Program-made: the position numbers and the translations under genes
The notes under the pieces: generated by a model
Databases searched by the model: none
What the model was told of the DNA's origin: nothing
What the model saw: only the letters and a program-made list of their open reading frames with translations
Virus record (IMG/VR): IMGVR_UViG_3300042924_004277
Span: 1-22,385 of that record
Strand: one strand, 5' to 3'
DNA: 22,385 bases
DNA from: a virus
Part shown: positions 8-22,272 of the stretch, piece after piece
Numbering within the stretch: the stretch's first letter is position 1
Layout: every line of letters starts with the position of its first letter

Positions 8-1027
8 TCAATAGTCCCAGCGCACGCGAGGTTTTCCTGGTCGGATGCCAAGGTGTATGAATCCTTTTGGTGCTCCATAGCCTACTGAGTACGGCCAATT
101 TCTATCGCACCATTCTTGCACAGCATAAATCCCATCTCCTTCAACATAAAAATCAATAGCGCCCTTGGACGGTGCGTCGTAAGTATGCTCACTGTTCTTG
201 GCGCCACCTACTTGTGTATTGATGGGCTCTGGACGAGAAGCACTGGTAATGATGAGTGGCTTGTTACCAAATTGTTTACGGACTTTCTCCAGGAATAAAC
301 AAAGTTCTTTTGCTGTGTCACATTGATACTGCTTGGTAAAGCGGCGCTTTTCCTGGTTAAGAGTCAGTTCACCGTATGTGATATTAGGTGTAATCTTGTA
401 GTTGAAAGGGCTCCAAGGATTGAAGTTATTGCTGTGTGGATCAGCAGGATCTTGTTCAGTACCGCTGTTTTGCAGTTGGCGGTCCATGATTTGAATCAAT
501 TTGGTCGCATAGTCAGGATCAGTTGCGTACCCTTCCTTAACTAAAAGCTGTGCACATTCATTCCGTGATTGAGCACGGTTAACACCTTTAAAACGGCCAA
601 AGTCTTTGTACCAGCGATCTACAAGGTATGTGACACAGGTTGCAAGATCAGGAAAATCAAGGAACCCTGCTTTAATCGTGATCCACTTTCCGTTGATAAA
701 TTCCTGTGTGTTGACGCTGGTACCAGATCCTTTTAAACCAAAGTAATTGTTTTGGCCTGATGTGTGTTTACCCCAACCAGATTCAAGTGCCCATTGCGCA
801 CTAACGCATTCCGGAAATTTGGCGCCAGCTTGTTTTGCCGCTGCATAAACACCGTCCCAAGTGTTATCTGTTTCTAGGGAAGGTTTAAGTACAGGCTTGG
901 TTCTATATTTAGACGCAAAAATATCCAGAGTCTCTGGAGTAAGAGCCCCCTGGAGCCAATTCCATGCTTCAATTTGATGCAGCTCTTCATTAAAAAACTT
1001 AGCTGCATCCGTGAGTTTAATAGACAT
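8..1027 (-). CDS. Two-domain endolysin: GH73 glucosaminidase + M15 peptidase
   Basis: This 339-aa protein probably degrades host peptidoglycan for lysis or entry. Residues about 55-185 look like a flagellar-type (FlgJ/GH73) glucosaminidase: ALESGWGKH contains the likely catalytic Glu82 and is followed by NNYFGLKG and a late Y-A-T-D-P-x-Y motif. Residues about 225-339 look like an M15 D,D/L,D-carboxypeptidase: SASR, then VGGAKNSEH (His281), GAIDF (Asp292) and GFIHLG (His325), the usual Zn ligands. About 40 polar residues link the domains. No signal peptide is visible, so export would need a holin or virion delivery. The ATG at 1027 has a weak AGGT upstream. It is the last gene of the leftward tail-fibre region, and a stem-loop lies just before the start. 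Domain calls are from motifs only; lysis versus virion-associated role cannot be decided here. Confidence 0.85.
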   Translation of the reverse strand: MSIKLTDAAKFFNEELHQIEAWNWLQGALTPETLDIFASKYRTKPVLKPSLETDNTWDGVYAAAKQAGAKFPECVSAQWALESGWGKHTSGQNNYFGLKGSGTSVNTQEFINGKWITIKAGFLDFPDLATCVTYLVDRWYKDFGRFKGVNRAQSRNECAQLLVKEGYATDPDYATKLIQIMDRQLQNSGTEQDPADPHSNNFNPWSPFNYKITPNITYGELTLNQEKRRFTKQYQCDTAKELCLFLEKVRKQFGNKPLIITSASRPEPINTQVGGAKNSEHTYDAPSKGAIDFYVEGDGIYAVQEWCDRNWPYSVGYGAPKGFIHLGIRPGKPRVRWDY

Positions 1028-1064
1028 ATCGACCTAGAGCGTTAGTACAACTCTAGATCAGGTC
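1028..1064 (-). promoter_or_regulatory. Stem-loop and -10-like hexamer before the endolysin
   Basis: CTAGAG and CTCTAG (1051-1056 and 1034-1039) form a perfect 6-bp stem with an 11-nt loop. GAC/GTC (1062-1064 and 1031-1033) can extend it across a bulge. The hexamer TAGAGT (1050-1055) lies 22 nt before the ATG and overlaps the upstream arm. This is a weaker version of the arrangement before the lysozyme and HhH genes. A role in translation control is inferred; the promoter match is only 4 of 6. Confidence 0.35.
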
Positions 1065-1070
1065 TATTTT

Positions 1071-10318: not shown

Positions 10319-10978
10319 CTAGCTAGTGAATAGCAAATCAAGTTCCTGGTCTGGGAAATCGCCCCACTTGTTTTCATTCACACGAAAGGCATTGGCAAAC
10401 TCTGACAGGATGTAAGGACTGATGCGTTCTTCCAGTTGACGAACTGCACGTACCTCATGGGGAGCAGCACTGTAGTTGCGGAAGGCTGTCAGAAGCACTT
10501 CAGTGGAGGACCAGGGATTGGCATCGACCTCTTGGAGGAACAAGTTAATCTCTTCCCTGCGGCGATCCAGAAGGCCACCAATGACGTTGTGCTCCTCATC
10601 ACAGATCCAATGGCCCATCTCTTGCGTAGCACCACAGAAGTCTTCCGCTTCAATGCGGTCGATGACGTGGCTGTACAGGAAAGGATCCCAGCCGACCGAA
10701 TGGATGAATGAGATTAGGGCCTGGCGCATGCTGTTGTCCAGGCCAAGGTTGAGCTTGGCTAGCTGGTTGTCAATGACATTGATCTCGTGGAAGAGGTATT
10801 CAAGGGCCTTCTCACGAGTACAGCATTGGCCACGCTTGACGGGAGAACCATCGGGATAGAACTGAGTTCCAAACCCGATGGTGTAGGGATCTTGACCAGT
10901 TGTCGGATCTGGGTATGCTTTTTCGCTATACCCTTCGTATTTGCGGATTAGGTTAACCGCATGCGAAAGATCCGACAT
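10319..10978 (-). CDS. Phage lysozyme, GH24 type
   Basis: A 219-aa muramidase. The N-terminal ~160 residues fit T4/P22-type GH24 lysozymes: LIRKYEGYSEKAYPD holds the likely catalytic Glu15 and Asp24, and DPYTIGFGTQF the Thr33 of the E-D-T triad. Between Asp24 and Thr33 are extra residues (PTTGQDP). SMRQALISFIHSVGWDPF is the conserved helix, and GLLDRRREEINLF the usual GGLxxRRxxE motif. About 60 residues after this (from roughly WSSTEVLLTAF) form an extra C-terminal domain that was not recognised, perhaps binding cell wall. No signal peptide is visible. The ATG at 10978 is preferred; an upstream in-frame ATG at 11008 would put a strong hairpin inside the coding region. Confidence 0.88.
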   Translation of the reverse strand: MSDLSHAVNLIRKYEGYSEKAYPDPTTGQDPYTIGFGTQFYPDGSPVKRGQCCTREKALEYLFHEINVIDNQLAKLNLGLDNSMRQALISFIHSVGWDPFLYSHVIDRIEAEDFCGATQEMGHWICDEEHNVIGGLLDRRREEINLFLQEVDANPWSSTEVLLTAFRNYSAAPHEVRAVRQLEERISPYILSEFANAFRVNENKWGDFPDQELDLLFTS

Positions 10979-11005
10979 AGGAGTACAACAAGTACTCCTA
11001 ATATA
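10978..11005 (-). promoter_or_regulatory. -10 hexamer and start-codon hairpin of lysozyme
   Basis: TATATT (11000-11005) is 21 nt before the ATG. Starting at its last T, a perfect 9-bp stem (11000-10992 with 10986-10978) and 5-nt loop TTGTT (10991-10987) reach exactly to the A of AUG. The upstream arm contains the only Shine-Dalgarno-like AGGAG. On readthrough RNA this would bury both AGGAG and the AUG edge. RNA started about 7 nt after the hexamer would lack most of the upstream arm. The promoter and the control mechanism are inferred; the inverted repeat is directly visible. Confidence 0.6.
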
Positions 11006-11013
11006 CATAAATT

Positions 11014-11139
11014 TTACTTACCTTGGCCCCTTAGCTTTTTTTTGCCTCGGCGTTGAGGACGACTGTTTTGGCCTTGGCCAATGGAAGTGGTCTTGGGTTT
11101 GCCTTCAATGTGAAGTGTGTTGGACTTGGGTTTTGCCAT
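11014..11139 (-). CDS. Tiny basic protein, 41 aa
   Basis: ATG at 11139 to TAA at 11014. The protein begins MAKPKSNTLHIEGKPKTTSIG and ends KKKLRGQGK, with Arg/Lys making a large share. It resembles tiny basic proteins seen in marine phages and pelagiphages with a KTSIGxG...RP...K...RGQGK pattern (memory-based, not tested). It could bind nucleic acid inside the head or act in packaging, which is speculative. TAGGAT (11163-11168) is 23 nt upstream of the ATG. It sits between another small basic gene and the lysozyme. Confidence 0.7.
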   Translation of the reverse strand: MAKPKSNTLHIEGKPKTTSIGQGQNSRPQRRGKKKLRGQGK

Positions 11140-11444: not shown

Positions 11445-13682
11445 TCAACTGAAGAAAGAACCAAAGCTACCAAGGAAATCTTGAGCAGACGGAAGCCTGC
11501 TAGATGTTGTACTGTTACTTCCTATTTTAAAGTATGAGGGCGCACCTTCATCCTTTTCATCGGTAAAGATACTGAAATAACTTTTCTTCGTAGGTAGCTC
11601 AGGTTTTTTTGCACTGCTGTCCTCAAACATGTTACCAATAGATGCCATAGCTGCAAATGGATCGGACATATCAGGCATGGAGAAGCCAAACAAACCTTGC
11701 ATCCCTCCTTTGGTAGATACTGTACCGTCTACTTTGCCAAGATTTTTGTCTTCATCTGTAGCATCAGGAAAGAAATCACGATAGAACTCGGATTCTGTTC
11801 CGGTGTAACCGGCTTTTTTAAAAATACCAAAGAGTGCTGTACCGCCGGCAGGGGCTCTTGGTTTTTCATCTGTATCTCGTTGAATATAACCAGCTCCCAA
11901 TTCCTCCTGTGTTGGTTTAATTTGTTGCTCATTAAGTAGACGAATCTTTTCTCGTATTTCAGAAGCAGGTTCTGTCCTTAAAAATTCAGAAAGATAAGAT
12001 TTAACTTGTTCAGCAGGCGTTTCATTAGGATCCAAGCCAACACCTTTTAGCTGTGTCAGATATTCCTCTGGCAGATCTTTTATATTCAATTTGTCAACAA
12101 GTTCTTGTGTTTTTGTTTCTGCAGAAACAAAATCCAAGAAAACTGGATTGCTGTATGAAGCTTTTTCATTTTGTAACGCTGCTGCTAGATCCTTTTGAAT
12201 AAAAGACGCAAGATCATCTCTTGTATAAGAATCGGCAACTGGATCATATCCTTTTGGCTTACCAATTATTTCGTAATGTAACCTTGCGAAATCATCTTTA
12301 TTGTTGATGTCAAGTCCATATTCATATGCCCATTGCGCCCAAGTTTTTCCATCTTTTACTGCATCTGCAGAAGCTCTATTTTCCCAATCGTTGTTAACGC
12401 TCTCTTTTTGTTGAGAATATAGAGTTGATTTTTTAGTGTCATCAGTGCCACTAAGTAGCTCAGGGTTTAGATAAAATTTGGGATCAAAAGCTTTGCTTGT
12501 TGTTTTTGTTGCAAGATCACTTAAATAGTTATTGGCCTGGTTGTTGGCAAAATCTTTTAATGCACTTGACGCAAGCTGAGTCTGTAAAACGTTTTGATTG
12601 TCTTCTTCTACATCCATGTAGCTTACAAATTCTGCAATCGATTTCGAAGTGTCAAAACGTGGTTTCAAGTAATCGTTGATAAATTTGTTTGCAAACTCTT
12701 GTTCAATCTTGTATGTTGTTGCCGCCTCTTTTGGATCTTGAATTTCTTGCATATTGCGATAACGCTCAGCAAGTGTTTCGTCAAACCACTTCTGCCAATT
12801 GTATTTAATTGAGGATCCAGTGCCAAAACTTTTTTCAAGTGCTTTGGAAAGGCCTTGGCCAAAACTTGTAAAACCGCCGCTGCCTAAATCACCAAGGATT
12901 GAATTCTTGATGTCTTGCTTAAAGCCGTTAACATCAGGCATGCCCATTCCCTGGAGCATGGAACTTATTTGCTCTTCTTTGATCGTTTTTGCGTACTTAT
13001 CTAAAGTTTGTTTAAGTACATCAGAGGAAAGGGCGCCAAAGGTCTGCTCTCCTTGACGATCAACGTAATCTTGCGTAGACAACTCAACCAACGAAGTCGG
13101 TTGTTCCGCAGAGGTACCAAATAAAGTCTCTCGTAGGATTTGACGTTCTCTATCTGTAGGTGGTCGAAGAGTCTCCGTGTACTCTGTAAGCTGCCTTTGT
13201 TTACCGGGCAAACCTGCTGGAGAACCAACAAAGCTATAATCCGCGTGAAGATAACTATCTAGATCAGGGTATTGCTTGGTAATATCAACATCTGCGATCT
13301 TTTGCCCTGCAAAGGTAACTGCTTTGCTTGCTTCTTTCCAGGTTTTAGCTTTATCCGGAACTAAACCGGCATAAAACTTTGCGTCAAATTCAGCAAGGTT
13401 TTTACCTTGTTTAGTTGAGTCCCAGGGCTTAATGCCTGCTGCTTTTTCATAAAAGGACTCAATAGTACCAATTGTATCCGCATCAATAACATCTTTGGCA
13501 ACAACGCCTTTGCTTTGAAGATCTTTATCAATACCCTCCATCAATGTTTTATAGCTTCCTGCCGATCCTTGAAAAGCGTTTAAACGCGCAGCAATAAGCT
13601 CCGCTGCTTCTTTTTCTTCAGAAGAAACATCTTCTGCAAGAGTAGGTGTTAAACGCCCATTGGATACAGTGAAACGAATCAT
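11445..13682 (-). CDS. Large hypothetical virion protein, 745 aa
   Basis: A long, mostly helical, charged protein with no signal peptide or membrane segment. Two segments resemble each other: EFDAKFYAGL near residue 98 and AFDPKFYLNPELL near residue 400. Each is followed by a helical stretch with KTW and ending in a tyrosine-rich D-L/Y motif, hinting at internally repeated structural domains. The C-terminal ~120 residues are Asp/Ser/Pro-rich (DEDKNLGKVDG, FSMPDMSDPFAAMASI, SSRLPSAQDFLG). Large proteins of this kind between head/tail genes are often internal virion or tail proteins, which is the inference here; no enzyme motif was recognised. The start overlaps the HNH stop by 4 nt (ATGA), so the two genes are coupled. 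Confidence 0.75.
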   Translation of the reverse strand: MIRFTVSNGRLTPTLAEDVSSEEKEAAELIAARLNAFQGSAGSYKTLMEGIDKDLQSKGVVAKDVIDADTIGTIESFYEKAAGIKPWDSTKQGKNLAEFDAKFYAGLVPDKAKTWKEASKAVTFAGQKIADVDITKQYPDLDSYLHADYSFVGSPAGLPGKQRQLTEYTETLRPPTDRERQILRETLFGTSAEQPTSLVELSTQDYVDRQGEQTFGALSSDVLKQTLDKYAKTIKEEQISSMLQGMGMPDVNGFKQDIKNSILGDLGSGGFTSFGQGLSKALEKSFGTGSSIKYNWQKWFDETLAERYRNMQEIQDPKEAATTYKIEQEFANKFINDYLKPRFDTSKSIAEFVSYMDVEEDNQNVLQTQLASSALKDFANNQANNYLSDLATKTTSKAFDPKFYLNPELLSGTDDTKKSTLYSQQKESVNNDWENRASADAVKDGKTWAQWAYEYGLDINNKDDFARLHYEIIGKPKGYDPVADSYTRDDLASFIQKDLAAALQNEKASYSNPVFLDFVSAETKTQELVDKLNIKDLPEEYLTQLKGVGLDPNETPAEQVKSYLSEFLRTEPASEIREKIRLLNEQQIKPTQEELGAGYIQRDTDEKPRAPAGGTALFGIFKKAGYTGTESEFYRDFFPDATDEDKNLGKVDGTVSTKGGMQGLFGFSMPDMSDPFAAMASIGNMFEDSSAKKPELPTKKSYFSIFTDEKDEGAPSYFKIGSNSTTSSRLPSAQDFLGSFGSFFS

Positions 13683-14035
13683 GATGCTGCTTTATATTCT
13701 TGCATGTCAATTAAGTTTACATGCCCTGGTTGCATCCAAGCTTTTATTGCATCTAACCTAACCTGTTCAAAAAAGTCTTGTTGTTTGTACCAGGTTTCCA
13801 TGGGAGACGACGCTTTGTTTGCGTTGCAACGGCAGCAAGCTGGGATCAAGTTATGTCGATTAGAACACCCTGATTTAAACCGTGGGATTACGTGGTCAAG
13901 GCTAGTGGCAGTATTGCCGCAATAACCACATTTGTAATCCCAAGCTTGGTATATACTTTCTCTGAAACGTTTCTTGGCAAGTTTTGGAGTTATTTCAACT
14001 AGCAGGGCGAGAGGCTCGTGCTGGCTGCAAAACAT
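13679..14035 (-). CDS. HNH endonuclease
   Basis: A 118-aa protein with a clear HNH fold at residues about 34-80: YKCGYCGN (first Cys pair), SLDHVIPRFKSG (Asp47-His48), RHNLIPACCRCNANK (Asn62, second Cys pair, final Asn/Lys). The two CxxC pairs bind structural Zn, and the D-H/N/N residues coordinate the catalytic metal. It is probably a DNA-nicking or cutting enzyme, either a packaging-type HNH or a free-standing homing nuclease. The ATG at 14035 was chosen over a TTG at 14044. It is coupled to the 745-aa gene by an ATGA overlap. TAAAAT lies 22 nt upstream. Its site between virion genes rather than beside terminase (none in view) fits a homing gene. Confidence 0.85.
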   Translation of the reverse strand: MFCSQHEPLALLVEITPKLAKKRFRESIYQAWDYKCGYCGNTATSLDHVIPRFKSGCSNRHNLIPACCRCNANKASSPMETWYKQQDFFEQVRLDAIKAWMQPGHVNLIDMQEYKAAS

Positions 14036-14057
14036 GCTCTTCAATTGCCGTTAATTC

Positions 14058-14118: not shown

Positions 14119-14146
14119 TTGACTCCGCGCCAATCTTGTGTATGGT
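14119..14146 (+). promoter_or_regulatory. Sigma-70-like promoter of the HTH gene
   Basis: TTGACT (14119-14124) and TATGGT (14141-14146) are separated by 16 nt, and TATGGT is 24 nt before the ATG at 14171. This is the only site in the window with a good -35 and -10 together, and suggests recognition by host RNA polymerase. It also decides the start: a GTG at 14138 would lie inside the promoter. Confidence 0.6.
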
Positions 14147-14170
14147 AAGAAGGTTGCTACTACCGCCTGC

Positions 14171-14389
14171 ATGGCCTCGCATCCTGGTTGGGTTTCTGCC
14201 CAAAAGCTCGAAGAGCTTCTTGGCATTGACCGTAAGACACTCTTCAAGTATCGCGATGACGGCACCCTGAAGCTTGGCCCGCACTACGCAGCTTTTGCTG
14301 AGACTCGCTCCAGGGATAGCTACCGCTGGAACGTAACAGCAGTACGCAAGCAACTCACAAAAGCTGGTATGATGCCAATGGCCGCCTAG
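14171..14389 (+). CDS. Small HTH DNA-binding protein, 72 aa
   Basis: A small winged-HTH protein of excisionase/MerR-like fold: VSAQKLEELLGIDRKTLFKYRDDG is the helix-turn-helix, KLGPHYAAF the turn and wing, and SYRWNVTAVRKQL the closing helix. It probably binds DNA as a regulator. It stands alone on the plus strand between leftward virion genes, with its own sigma-70-like promoter and a strong terminator 20 nt after its stop. That layout suits an early or constitutive regulator. The GTG at 14138 is rejected because it lies in the promoter; from ATG 14171 the leader would be about 15-20 nt and no Shine-Dalgarno is present. It shares domain order with the HTH protein at 6505. Confidence 0.8.
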   Translation: MASHPGWVSAQKLEELLGIDRKTLFKYRDDGTLKLGPHYAAFAETRSRDSYRWNVTAVRKQLTKAGMMPMAA

Positions 14390-14409: not shown

Positions 14410-14441
14410 AAACGGTCCTGTCACTGATGGGACCGTTTTTT
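14410..14441 (+). terminator. Rho-independent terminator
   Basis: A perfect 9-bp stem AAACGGTCC/GGACCGTTT (14410-14418 and 14430-14438), 11-nt loop, and a T-run (14436-14441). It ends the plus-strand HTH transcript. The T-run overlaps the stop codon of the converging 516-aa gene. In the minus direction only TTTCT follows the stem, so leftward termination would be weak. Confidence 0.9.
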
Positions 14442-15990
14442 ATGGCTTGTATGGCCTGCCGTCTTTGTCGAACATCGTAAAATTCTCAATCAAGATTTTA
14501 TCTGTGGCAAAGTTAAAAATACGTTGCAACATGGGAAAGATCATGGGTGATTGACAGTTGTAAGGCGGTACATCCATCAACGACAAAGCTCTTTGTGTTT
14601 GCAAAAATTCTGTGATGCTTTCTTTTTCTTTTTGCGATTTAGCAACAAGGGTTTGTTCCCAGTCGGCCATGCTGCCTGCACCTACCGGAAAATCAGACGG
14701 TTCAGGAGGAAATACTCGATCTTTAAATTTAAGTGCGTAGATATGTTTGCAGTATCTCAATTCATCTAATAACGGCGTCCAGGAGTCATCAACGGCGGTT
14801 ATTGTAATTTGTGGAATAGAGTCCGTATCCGTGTTTACAACAACGGACGAATAATCCTGGTAGCCAGGTAAACCATCAGGTCTGGAGCCTGTAATCGCGA
14901 TATCGGTTGTACTTCTGACGTAAGTAGAACCAAAATCTCTGAAGACACCTGGATTGTCTCTTGTTGCATTACGGCTGCCAATGTTGTTATTCGTGACATC
15001 GTAATCAAGTTCAAAACCTTCTGGCGAAACAACATCTAATGTGCGATCTTGTCCAGGTCTTGTCATTGCACTGTTATCTAAAATGCCATCGCGTTTTGTT
15101 AATTCAAAACGACCAGGCTTAATACTTGCTGCGCTGGAACGAGGAAACTGTCGTTTATTGCTGGTTGTACTCGCTGCCAAGAATGAATAATCGCGCCGGG
15201 TAAAATCTTGACAAGTACAACAGTATCTTGATCCAGTGATTAGATAGCGCCCTGGAGTAAAGCCAATGGATGACGGTGTTGTAAAAATACCATCAGGTGT
15301 TACCTGCACTGAACCATCTTTTTTGAAGGTGAGTACGCCAGTGTCTTGATTGATGGCAATAACAATTGCTTGCACGTAGCCGTATCGCGTTTGAGTCTGT
15401 GGGTTTATGGTGTCTTTGTCAATAATTGGACCATCAACCGTAATGATTCGATCTTCAAAAATCTCTGTATTAGCCGGCTTCAGGCCATCTGGTTCCCCTG
15501 GCACTGGAATGTAAAAAGGTGCCGGAAGGGGGTTGGATGAGCTCCAGGTACCCGCTAGCTTTACATACCAATAGCTAGCATCTTCCGTAACAGACTCAAT
15601 AAAAAGTTTTTGACTACTGACTGGATCTGTCAATCGATCACAACGAACTGATCCGGCGTAACGCCAGATAGCCCAATGCATACCAAACTCTTTGCTTATC
15701 GTTGGGTAACCAGTAAAAGCACCCGAGATTACAATTGCGTCATTTCCCGTGGAGGAAGAATTTGGTATCTCATAGTCAAACTGATAAGAGTAATCGTTAC
15801 TATGCGTTGTTGCCGTTGCAAGCTCATAGCCTCGTCTCCAGCGAGACCAAGCCGATTCCCTGTTGATGGTATATAACGAATCTGGGACAGAACCCTTTGA
15901 AAACTCAGTCGTAATTGGTTTTACACCATTTGGGGGTTTTACGATTGACTGATCAAAATTACCAAAAGAGCTTCCACTCTTTCTAGCCAT
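14440..15990 (-). CDS. Virion structural protein with Cys cluster, 516 aa
   Basis: A large beta-rich protein that was not recognised by family but looks like a phage structural component (tail or baseplate/connector). It begins MARKSGSSFGNFDQSIVKPP, has many aromatic and Gly/Ser-rich strands (AGSVRCDRLTDPVSSQKLF, ITVDGPIIDKDTINPQTQT), and carries the cluster RYCCTCQDFTRRDYSF with Cys257, Cys258 and Cys260. Further Cys residues are at 117, near 430 (LRYCKHIY) and near 490 (PYNCQSP). Three close cysteines could bind a metal or form disulphides. The C-terminus is helical (ADWEQTLVAKSQKEKESITEF). It starts 2 nt after the preceding 260-aa gene, with AAGGTGG about 13 nt before its ATG, so the two are co-expressed. 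Confidence 0.75.
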   Translation of the reverse strand: MARKSGSSFGNFDQSIVKPPNGVKPITTEFSKGSVPDSLYTINRESAWSRWRRGYELATATTHSNDYSYQFDYEIPNSSSTGNDAIVISGAFTGYPTISKEFGMHWAIWRYAGSVRCDRLTDPVSSQKLFIESVTEDASYWYVKLAGTWSSSNPLPAPFYIPVPGEPDGLKPANTEIFEDRIITVDGPIIDKDTINPQTQTRYGYVQAIVIAINQDTGVLTFKKDGSVQVTPDGIFTTPSSIGFTPGRYLITGSRYCCTCQDFTRRDYSFLAASTTSNKRQFPRSSAASIKPGRFELTKRDGILDNSAMTRPGQDRTLDVVSPEGFELDYDVTNNNIGSRNATRDNPGVFRDFGSTYVRSTTDIAITGSRPDGLPGYQDYSSVVVNTDTDSIPQITITAVDDSWTPLLDELRYCKHIYALKFKDRVFPPEPSDFPVGAGSMADWEQTLVAKSQKEKESITEFLQTQRALSLMDVPPYNCQSPMIFPMLQRIFNFATDKILIENFTMFDKDGRPYKP

Positions 15991-19765: not shown

Positions 19766-19793
19766 AAATAAAAACCCCCGGTTTCCCAGGGGT
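19763..19793 (-). terminator. Rho-independent terminator after the HhH gene
   Basis: On the minus strand ACCCCTGG/CCGGGGGT forms an 8-bp stem (with one G-U pair) closed by a GAAA tetraloop, followed by TTTTTATTTT. The G-U pair becomes a C-A mismatch on the other strand, which shows it works leftward. It separates the capsid-side genes from the peptidase gene. Confidence 0.9.
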
Positions 19794-19813: not shown

Positions 19814-20242
19814 TTATACACGGATCAAGTCAGCGGCAAAGACCGCGTCCCAATCAACTCTTTTGATCTGTTTTAGCTGTTCGAGATTGTTGAACCTTTC
19901 ACCCGATAAGGACATCTGAAGATCTTTAATCTCTCGGGCCGTTTTCAATCCGATACCCTTGATATGATCAGCGATCATTTGAGCGGTAGCGCCATTGATA
20001 TTTAAACGTGTATCAGGAGGAAAGGTACGTGGTTCTTCTTGCGCTGCCTTATCTTTTACTTGAAGAGTCTTTACCTTTTTAGTGGCTTCTTCGTCGGGCT
20101 CAATCTCAGTCCTGTAAACGGTAAAAAGGCGACCATCCTGATCTTCGACCATGAACCAATCGCCTTGATCCCATTCGCTAATAACTTTGACACGAGCGCC
20201 TGTTTTTTTATGCTGATAAAGCATTGCTGCCGTGGTTGACAT
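19814..20242 (-). CDS. SH3-like + helix-hairpin-helix protein, 142 aa
   Basis: Residues about 5-50 (YQHKKTGARVKVISEWDQGDWFMVEDQDGRLFTVYRTEIEP, read as short strands) look like a small SH3/Tudor-type barrel. A charged Lys/Glu linker follows. Residues about 79-130 look like a ComEA/Pol-type HhH pair: LNINGATAQMIADHIKGIGLKTA and LEQLKQIKRVDWDAV, with GIGLKTA as the hairpin. HhH modules bind DNA backbone non-specifically, so this may be a DNA-binding protein of head assembly, packaging or regulation. It follows the putative decoration gene and is followed by a terminator. The ATG at 20242 has no Shine-Dalgarno; a 10-bp hairpin ends on this start codon. An ATG at codon 7 is an alternative start. 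Confidence 0.75.
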   Translation of the reverse strand: MSTTAAMLYQHKKTGARVKVISEWDQGDWFMVEDQDGRLFTVYRTEIEPDEEATKKVKTLQVKDKAAQEEPRTFPPDTRLNINGATAQMIADHIKGIGLKTAREIKDLQMSLSGERFNNLEQLKQIKRVDWDAVFAADLIRV

Positions 20243-20271
20243 AAGACCAGTGATTAACTGGTCTTAGTTTA
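20242..20271 (-). promoter_or_regulatory. -10-like hexamer and start-codon hairpin of the HhH gene
   Basis: TAAACT (20266-20271, 4 of 6 match) is 23 nt before the ATG. From its last T a perfect 10-bp stem, TAAGACCAGT/ACTGGTCTTA (20266-20257 with 20251-20242), and 5-nt loop run exactly to the A of AUG. There is no U-tract, so it is not a terminator. The layout copies that of the lysozyme start with a different sequence, pointing to an RNA structure rather than one shared operator. Translation control is inferred. Confidence 0.55.
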
Positions 20272-21117: not shown

Positions 21118-22272
21118 TCAAACAGTGCCGTCGTCCTGGACGAAGCTGTAAGCAGTGGTCACAAAGTCCTTGTTCAGGATCTCGAAGCCAGCGTACAGCT
21201 GCCAGATCAGGATGATAAAGCGGCTGAAGTCGTCGTTGTTGTTGATGAGCACCTGAGCGTTAGGACCGCCGATACCAACACCAACAGACTGAGGACCGAA
21301 GAAGTAACCTTGGGCCACTTCCTTGGAAGCATAGGTGGAGCCGCCATCAAAGGAAGCAGACACGTTCTTGGTCGGGAAGTTGGTCGACTCGAAGAACTTG
21401 ACGCCTTCAAACTGCACACCAGTCGGCATCACGGGTTCACCAGCCAGGAAGTAGCCCTGACCAGCTTGGGGACCCATGTAGAAGCTGGCGTTGTTAGGCA
21501 TCATGGGGTTACCCATGTACATGCCTTGGCCAGGATTGCCGCTATAACGAGCGATCTCACGGAAGTCTGGGTCACGACGCAGGTGCATCATGAAGGTGGG
21601 ATCGCAAATGCAGCGATACAGACCATCAGCGAAGGTAGGAGTATTGCGCTTACGCAGGTCCTTAACAACGGTCAGAAGGTCGGTACGCACCTGGAACTGC
21701 TGCACCTCATTACCATACTCAGTGGAGGTGTAGGACACACGACCCTGAGAATCTTTGACTTTAGCGCCAGCAAAGTAGTAACCACCTTGGGTAGTACCAG
21801 CGACACCATTAGCTTCTGCTTTGGCAAGTTCGTCAATGAAGACGCGGTCACGCCAACGGCGATAGTCGTCGAGCAGCGTCAGGCTACCGATCGACTGGTG
21901 GAACATGTTGAGGTTACCGGTATCCAGCAGAAGACGCTGGGCGGTAATCAGAGTTTCACGAGCAATCTTGAAGGTGCTGGGCTGGGTCGGATCACCCGGG
22001 TCGGCAGGACCAGTGTATTCCTTAAGCACCACCAGAACTTTTTCCTTGGTGATGTTACGGCTGTTAGCGGTACCGATGGTTTGGTCGGCAATACGCTCAC
22101 GGCTGTCCTTCGTACCAGGGGTACCCCAGAACTTATAGCGGTCTAACTGAACGGTTTGACCGGGCTGACGAGTGAAGTCGTGGACCACCACAGGCTCCAC
22201 TGCCATTTCAGCAATGTAAGCAGGGTGAGGACGGTAAAGTTCCGCACCCAGAATCTTTGGAAAGTCGTTCTC
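21118..22272 (-). CDS. Major capsid protein, distal exon (partial)
   Basis: 384 codons after the intron are visible, ending TGA at 21118. The coding frame continues upstream of the first ATG (22206) for 22 more codons (ENDFPKILGAELYRPHPAYIAE) to the intron border near 22273. An in-frame TAA at 22288-22290 lies inside the intron, so splicing is needed. Features fit the N4-gp56-like capsid family: VVVHDFTRQPGQTVQLDRYKFWG, DLRKRNTPTFADGLYRCICDPTFMMHLRRDPDF (read in parts), and the end YAGFEILNKDFVTTAYSF. It forms the icosahedral shell and probably uses the HK97 fold. The proximal exon lies outside the window. Family assignment is from recognised motifs; the exact splice site is uncertain by a few bases. 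Confidence 0.85.
   Translation of the reverse strand, partial: ENDFPKILGAELYRPHPAYIAEMAVEPVVVHDFTRQPGQTVQLDRYKFWGTPGTKDSRERIADQTIGTANSRNITKEKVLVVLKEYTGPADPGDPTQPSTFKIARETLITAQRLLLDTGNLNMFHQSIGSLTLLDDYRRWRDRVFIDELAKAEANGVAGTTQGGYYFAGAKVKDSQGRVSYTSTEYGNEVQQFQVRTDLLTVVKDLRKRNTPTFADGLYRCICDPTFMMHLRRDPDFREIARYSGNPGQGMYMGNPMMPNNASFYMGPQAGQGYFLAGEPVMPTGVQFEGVKFFESTNFPTKNVSASFDGGSTYASKEVAQGYFFGPQSVGVGIGGPNAQVLINNNDDFSRFIILIWQLYAGFEILNKDFVTTAYSFVQDDGTV

Follow-up and report, generated by a model that had tools for sequence, protein, structure and literature searches.

This locus raises the question of whether translation of a phage lysozyme gene is shut by an RNA hairpin on transcripts that enter from the genes upstream and is released on RNA that starts locally, in the manner of gene e of phage T4. 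The DNA analysed, referred to here as the window, is a stretch of 22,385 nt (IMG/VR record IMGVR_UViG_3300042924_004277, positions 1 to 22,385). The virus is related to Synechococcus phage S-EIV1 (KJ410740), has a similar gene order and is not a T4-type phage.

The lysozyme gene and the hairpin at its start codon

The lysozyme gene (10319-10978, minus strand) encodes 219 amino acids and was assigned to the GH24 phage lysozymes (PF00959, E=7.6e-18; phrog_7 endolysin), the Phage_lysozyme domain scoring 65.5 bits against a gathering cut-off of 22.3. The protein shares 55% identity with the lysozyme of S-EIV1. Ahead of it the minus strand carries, in this order, the gene for the major head protein (21118-22206), several others presumed to be structural, a gene of 90 aa and a small 41-aa ORF (11014-11139), read from the sequence, whose stop codon is 13 nt before the lysozyme stem. 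S-EIV1 has a 126-nt ORF at the same place. The same-strand genes upstream of lysozyme appear to be structural and are not clearly early. From 14856 to the lysozyme gene the minus strand showed no terminator-like site, so readthrough into lysozyme is expected.

An inverted repeat at 14410-14438, between the convergent genes 14138-14389 (plus strand) and 14440-15990 (minus strand), is possibly a two-way terminator. An HNH endonuclease ORF (13679-14044, minus strand) lies between blocks of virion genes, and an annotated HNH nuclease is found at a comparable place in S-EIV1.

The start hairpin of the lysozyme gene (11000-10978, minus strand) reads TAGGAGTAC-TTGTT-GTACTCCTA, with the 5′ arm at 11000-10992, the loop at 10991-10987 and the 3′ arm at 10986-10978. 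Watson-Crick pairing holds at all 9 positions of the stem, and the A of the ATG falls at 10978. In its minus-strand context the leader is ...TTTATG-TATATT-AGGAGTAC-TTGTT-GTACTCCT-ATGTCGG. The perfect 9-bp stem with a 5-nt loop, running from the last base of TATATT to the A of AUG, is present exactly as the sequence-only reading had described it. That reading had named 11008 as the start that would undo its proposal. The start at 11008 was rejected and the AUG at 10978 was taken as the true one, since 11008 is not conserved: it is out of frame in relatives such as L003, and in the clade with TATGATT it becomes GTG with a stop within 6 codons. A short ORF from the conserved RTG of TRTGTATATT/TRTGTATGATT was likewise rejected, its frame and end differing between clades through an indel.

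Taken singly, the hairpin could be a chance inverted repeat beside a start codon. The window contains 97 short inverted repeats, so that a 9-bp repeat alone is not rare in 22 kb, and the 91-nt fold of this single leader is unremarkable (z = -1.2). A scan for conserved hairpins abutting start codons, covering about 1000 ORFs in four related genomes, speaks against chance. Gene 19814-20242 of the window ranked first and lysozyme second, and gene 8-1027 was the next clear gene start. The cost of opening the AUG region of lysozyme, 15.7 kcal/mol, is the third highest among 21 window genes. The three hairpin genes have the highest costs (15.7, 16.0 and 19.7 kcal/mol); the 18 genes that lack such hairpins reach at most 13.1 kcal/mol, with a median of 8.15. 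It is through its place and its conservation that the lysozyme hairpin stands above chance. With the covariation in 117 loci described below, which excludes a chance repeat, we regard that reading as vanishingly improbable.

Covariation of the stem and the hexamer at its foot

Rfam gave no match for the region. With blastn the region had no hit among 50,697 phage records, and relatives were therefore taken from protein-guided scans. These gave 80 IMG/VR loci and 38 found with the S-EIV1 protein, two of the latter, only 24% identical, being left out; the set contained 52 distinct leaders. When the stem was paired back from the A of AUG without an alignment program, 39 different stems were seen in 117 lysozyme loci. 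At least 8 of the 9 pairs were kept in 107 of them, with compensatory and G-U changes and with the stem closing on the start codon. The expectation that related phages keep the pairing by compensatory changes was thereby borne out. When 32 distinct leaders were aligned with MAFFT, 92.6% of stem cells were paired, compared with 36-56% when the partner was slid by 1-3 columns, and 30 cells were double-changed against 11.3 ± 2.8 in shuffles (0/500). Compensatory changes occur in all five pairs after the closing U-A pair. Examples of variant stems are TGGGGGTAA/TTACCCCCA, TGGAAGTAA/TTACTTCCA and TGAGGGTAA/TTACCCTCA. In L023, whose upstream sequence is different, an unrelated stem, TAAAAACAC/GTGTTCTTA, stands on the AUG at the same spot, and in L273 and L275 a long stem takes in the hexamer itself. 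The stem is weak or lost in L271, L276, L278 and L063, all of which retain the hexamer. On this covariation it is near certain that the hairpin is conserved as an RNA structure.

The same data bear on a palindrome acting as DNA, namely an operator that overlaps a promoter and is bound by a DNA-binding protein of phage or host. The inverted repeat straddles a -10-like hexamer and a predicted transcription start, which is a usual place for a repressor. However, three different palindromes are found in one genome, arm sequences differ without restraint among the lysozyme loci, and at many G-T steps the DNA symmetry is lost but the RNA pairing kept. Since the one-sided changes give G-U pairs, RNA structure is favoured over a DNA palindrome, and the operator was rejected on the covariation and the G-U steps as very unlikely. 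The hairpin might instead be a processing site for RNase III or E, where cleavage would open the start or define mRNA ends. The intergenic position and the double-stranded RNA suit such a site, and processing of phage leaders is common. Against it, a 9-bp stem is short for RNase III, and the exact closure on the AUG in nearly all lineages would be needless for cleavage. We consider this improbable.

The hexamer TATATT (11005-11000, minus strand) resembles a -10 element, and the stem begins with its last T, which pairs with the A of AUG. The TATATT motif does not recur in the window. A TANNNT hexamer lies at -26 to -32, at the foot of the stem, in 52 of 52 distinct lysozyme leaders, a count to be read with the looseness of the pattern, which has a 43% chance in an 8-nt window of this composition, and with some circularity, because the footprint was anchored on the TANNNT pattern itself. 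Variants include TATATT, TATGAT (one base further out), TATTAT and TAAGAT; T, A and the final T are invariant in all 52 while the middle positions vary. The weight therefore rests on the many lineages and on the terminase leaders, 47 of which (all distinct) were aligned with no preset pattern. T, A, a variable middle and T appeared there too, each fixed base in 47/47. The terminase hexamer is directly 5′ of a conserved hairpin (94.3% paired), and in most lineages a few bases separate this stem from the start codon. For SigE promoters of Synechocystis, TANNNT has been reported as a -10 consensus (PMC11368403).

The sequence-only reading had also proposed a local start about 7 nt past TATATT. 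A pyrimidine-A step is found at +6 to +8 after the hexamer, near the top of the 5′ arm, in 52/52 leaders. In the window the predicted start is the A of a T-A step at 10993 (minus strand), 7 nt after the hexamer, and RNA from it would lose 7 of the 9 bases of the 5′ arm. Hexamer and step are conserved in place; the promoter itself is a likely one, judged by sequence. No -35 site was recognisable near the hexamer, and the promoter scan does not report a lysozyme promoter. Sigma70_r2 had no match in S-EIV1 or in two long relatives, G001 and G002, using a generic model from which T4 gp55 is divergent; this fits the use of host polymerase and does not prove it.

A hairpin acting with no promoter is the alternative to be taken most seriously here. 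It would only lower or tune translation on a polycistronic structural mRNA, for dosage or through coupling to ribosomes that terminate at the 41-aa ORF, with the AT-rich hexamer as a single-stranded landing site. In its favour, proof of the hairpin is much stronger than proof of the promoter, the stop codon of that ORF, 13 nt away, is near enough for a terminating ribosome to touch the stem, and the start structure of gene 8-1027 has no hexamer at that place. On the other side, T-A-N-N-N-T is kept with a changing middle, across an indel and also where the hairpin was lost, and in L023, L063 and L074 leader and hexamer are unchanged despite a different upstream sequence. On balance we think this alternative unlikely, without dismissing it. 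A cis-acting RNA gate on lysozyme translation, coupled to a local promoter and similar to that of T4 gene e, is the best explanation and, with moderate confidence, the probable one.

The stretch ahead of the lysozyme leader, which in other relatives is the end of the upstream gene, is different in L023, L063 and L074. The TRTGTATATT/TRTGTATGATT leader is still found with the lysozyme gene there, and the two seem to travel together.

Predicted opening of the start

Under the gate model, a transcript entering from the upstream structural genes would fold in the leader and bury the first base of the lysozyme AUG together with those immediately before it, and ribosomes would initiate poorly on this closed RNA. 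A local host-type promoter, with its -10 TATATT at the stem foot, would start RNA near the top of the 5′ arm. This RNA would be without 7 of the 9 arm bases, the hairpin could not form, and translation would proceed from a leader of about 15 nt with no Shine-Dalgarno site. Lysozyme output would then be uncoupled from the structural operon and tied to the timing of the local promoter. The activity of that promoter, the repression of the long RNA and the timing of the gate are what we infer.

The opening cost of the region from -15 to +10 was computed for a 100-nt readthrough leader and for RNA from the predicted start. For the window lysozyme it fell from 15.7 to 7.3 kcal/mol, and the probability that the AUG is unpaired rose from 0.30 to 0.87 in the short RNA. 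T4 gene e, used as a positive control in the same calculation, went from 16.3 to 3-4 kcal/mol. The cost was lower in the short RNA in 52/52 leaders (median 13.1 to 4.8 kcal/mol), a drop that is partly mere shortness. Shuffling of the lost arm alone brought the median from 12.5 to 9.2 kcal/mol, and the observed cost exceeded the shuffled mean in 45 of 52 leaders. The result depends on the start position: window RNA started at -20 rather than -15 had an opening cost of 13.0 kcal/mol and was much less opened. The gate model has a real weakness on the S-EIV1 side and for the L249-L269 clade, where folding of the short RNA predicts that the AUG pairs again, now with coding sequence. The claim that the shortened RNA would be free for translation is therefore supported by prediction for the window and most relatives, but not for S-EIV1 and the L249-L269 clade.

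It had further been supposed that the upstream arm sequesters the ribosome site. AGGAG is indeed present in the 5′ arm, but the 16 nt between it and the AUG exceed the usual Shine-Dalgarno spacing in linear RNA. Shine-Dalgarno cores are scarce in S-EIV1, found in 8 of 54 genes against a shuffled mean of 4.4. AGGAG as a working ribosome site is disfavoured on both counts and is probably not the site; because of this spacing and the Shine-Dalgarno-poor lineage, the AUG is the likelier target of the stem.

Other genes and the comparison with phage T4

At least two other genes of the window carry start-codon hairpins, so the device is not tied to lysis, and the view of it as a lysis-specific trait was not upheld. 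A 142-aa gene adjoining the head genes, with a weak helix-hairpin-helix match (19814-20242, minus strand), has its AUG closed by its own 10-bp hairpin, TAAGACCAGT-TAATC-ACTGGTCTTA (20242-20266, minus strand). The hexamer TAAACT (20271-20266) precedes it, and its last T pairs with the A of AUG. In 24 distinct relatives 97.5% of the cells were paired and 17 were double-changed (0/500), and the hairpin is kept in nearly all of 80 relatives and in S-EIV1. A strong terminator-like hairpin with a T tract is directly 3′ of this gene (19774-19793, minus strand), suggesting that the head-gene unit ends there.

The other gene (8-1027, minus strand) encodes a cell-wall hydrolase with glucosaminidase and peptidase M15 domains (PF01832, E=6.5e-20; PF08291, E=5.8e-16). 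Its start structure (1019-1068, minus strand) is a two-tier helix, with an inner helix GATCTAGAG/CTCTAGGTC and an outer helix AATAGAC/GTCTATT, and the A and U of AUG are in the internal loop. In 18 distinct relatives 91.4% of cells were paired, and many distant relatives have a homolog without the start structure. As far as the sequences tell, the lysozyme layout recurs at the head-region gene and a related start-codon structure stands at this second cell-wall hydrolase gene. In L202, L208, L210 and L215 the homolog of gene 8-1027 has an unrelated long hairpin abutting a GTG start, with AT-rich TAAAAT in its loop.

In S-EIV1 alone, a genome-wide search for start-abutting hairpins at score 16 gave 5 against 5.1 expected, no excess. 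The hairpin signal comes from particular conserved genes and not from the genome as a whole. Upstream of the S-EIV1 glycosyltransferase gene (KJ410740 8075-9343, minus strand) stand TATACT and, one base from its ATG, a hairpin of 7 bp (AGTTCAG/CTGAACT), the arrangement seen at lysozyme. Relatives (L283-L291) of the S-EIV1 terminase large subunit (846 aa; KJ410740 54080-56620; L244:14581-17121) are about 508 aa long and align with it from one end to the other. The difference implies an insertion of roughly 337 aa, which is probably an intein.

In T4, the start regions of genes e, soc, 49 and I-TevI are closed by RNA structure, the 5′ strand of which contains late promoters, and 100-fold less lysozyme is made from the long RNA of gene e (PMC3014915). 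Gene e and the window gene both encode GH24 lysozymes whose start is closed by a hairpin on readthrough RNA at a similar computed cost, and in both the promoter, putative in the window, is sited so that local transcripts lose the 5′ strand. Both phages have the device at several genes, in T4 also at capsid and packaging genes. There are also differences. The window phage belongs to an unrelated phage family with an unrelated host. The T4 promoter TATAAATA is read with gp55, whereas the window has a host-type TANNNT hexamer, and the T4 late -10 element TATAAATA is absent from the window. T4 hides its Shine-Dalgarno sequence (AGGAGG) in the 3′ arm beside the AUG, while in the window the arm of purines lies on the 5′ side and pairing takes in the AUG itself. 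The readthrough RNA of T4 is early; the upstream genes of the window are structural. By anatomy the window lysozyme works like T4 gene e and is not a member of the T4 late regulon. The start hairpins of mobE and I-TevI also shut the ribosome site on readthrough transcripts (cited in PMC3014915), but they serve endonucleases nested in other genes, whereas the window hairpin serves a lysis gene in an operon.

Several T4-type cyanophages are listed as having no apparent gene e (PMC3014915). Four other cyanophage lysozymes were examined and had no such hairpin; with these, and with a phage that is not T4-type, the case stands as independent of T4 gene e, as had been suggested. No description of start-codon hairpin gating in cyanophages was found in searches of open-access papers.

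We put forward only tentatively, with rather more doubt than belief, that S-EIV1-like cyanophages run a multi-gene programme in which late genes whose translation from the long structural transcript must be prevented (lysozyme, the wall hydrolase, the head-region gene and perhaps terminase) have private start-codon hairpins that are unsealed by private host-type promoters with their start sites inside the arm. Such a programme would be a convergent version of the T4 gene e switch, spread over several genes and working without Shine-Dalgarno sites.

This phage group is a little-studied family of viruses that kill cyanobacteria. Its covarying leaders provide a comparative data set on hairpins that close start codons in a lineage hardly using Shine-Dalgarno sites. 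The conserved hairpin suggests that these cyanophages independently use a safety lock on lysis like that of T4. If so, two unrelated phage groups would have evolved the same lysis lock, which would suggest that operon readthrough into lysozyme is a general hazard solved by mRNA folding. It would also be one of few mechanistic handles on the timing of lysis in cyanophages, killers of major primary producers.
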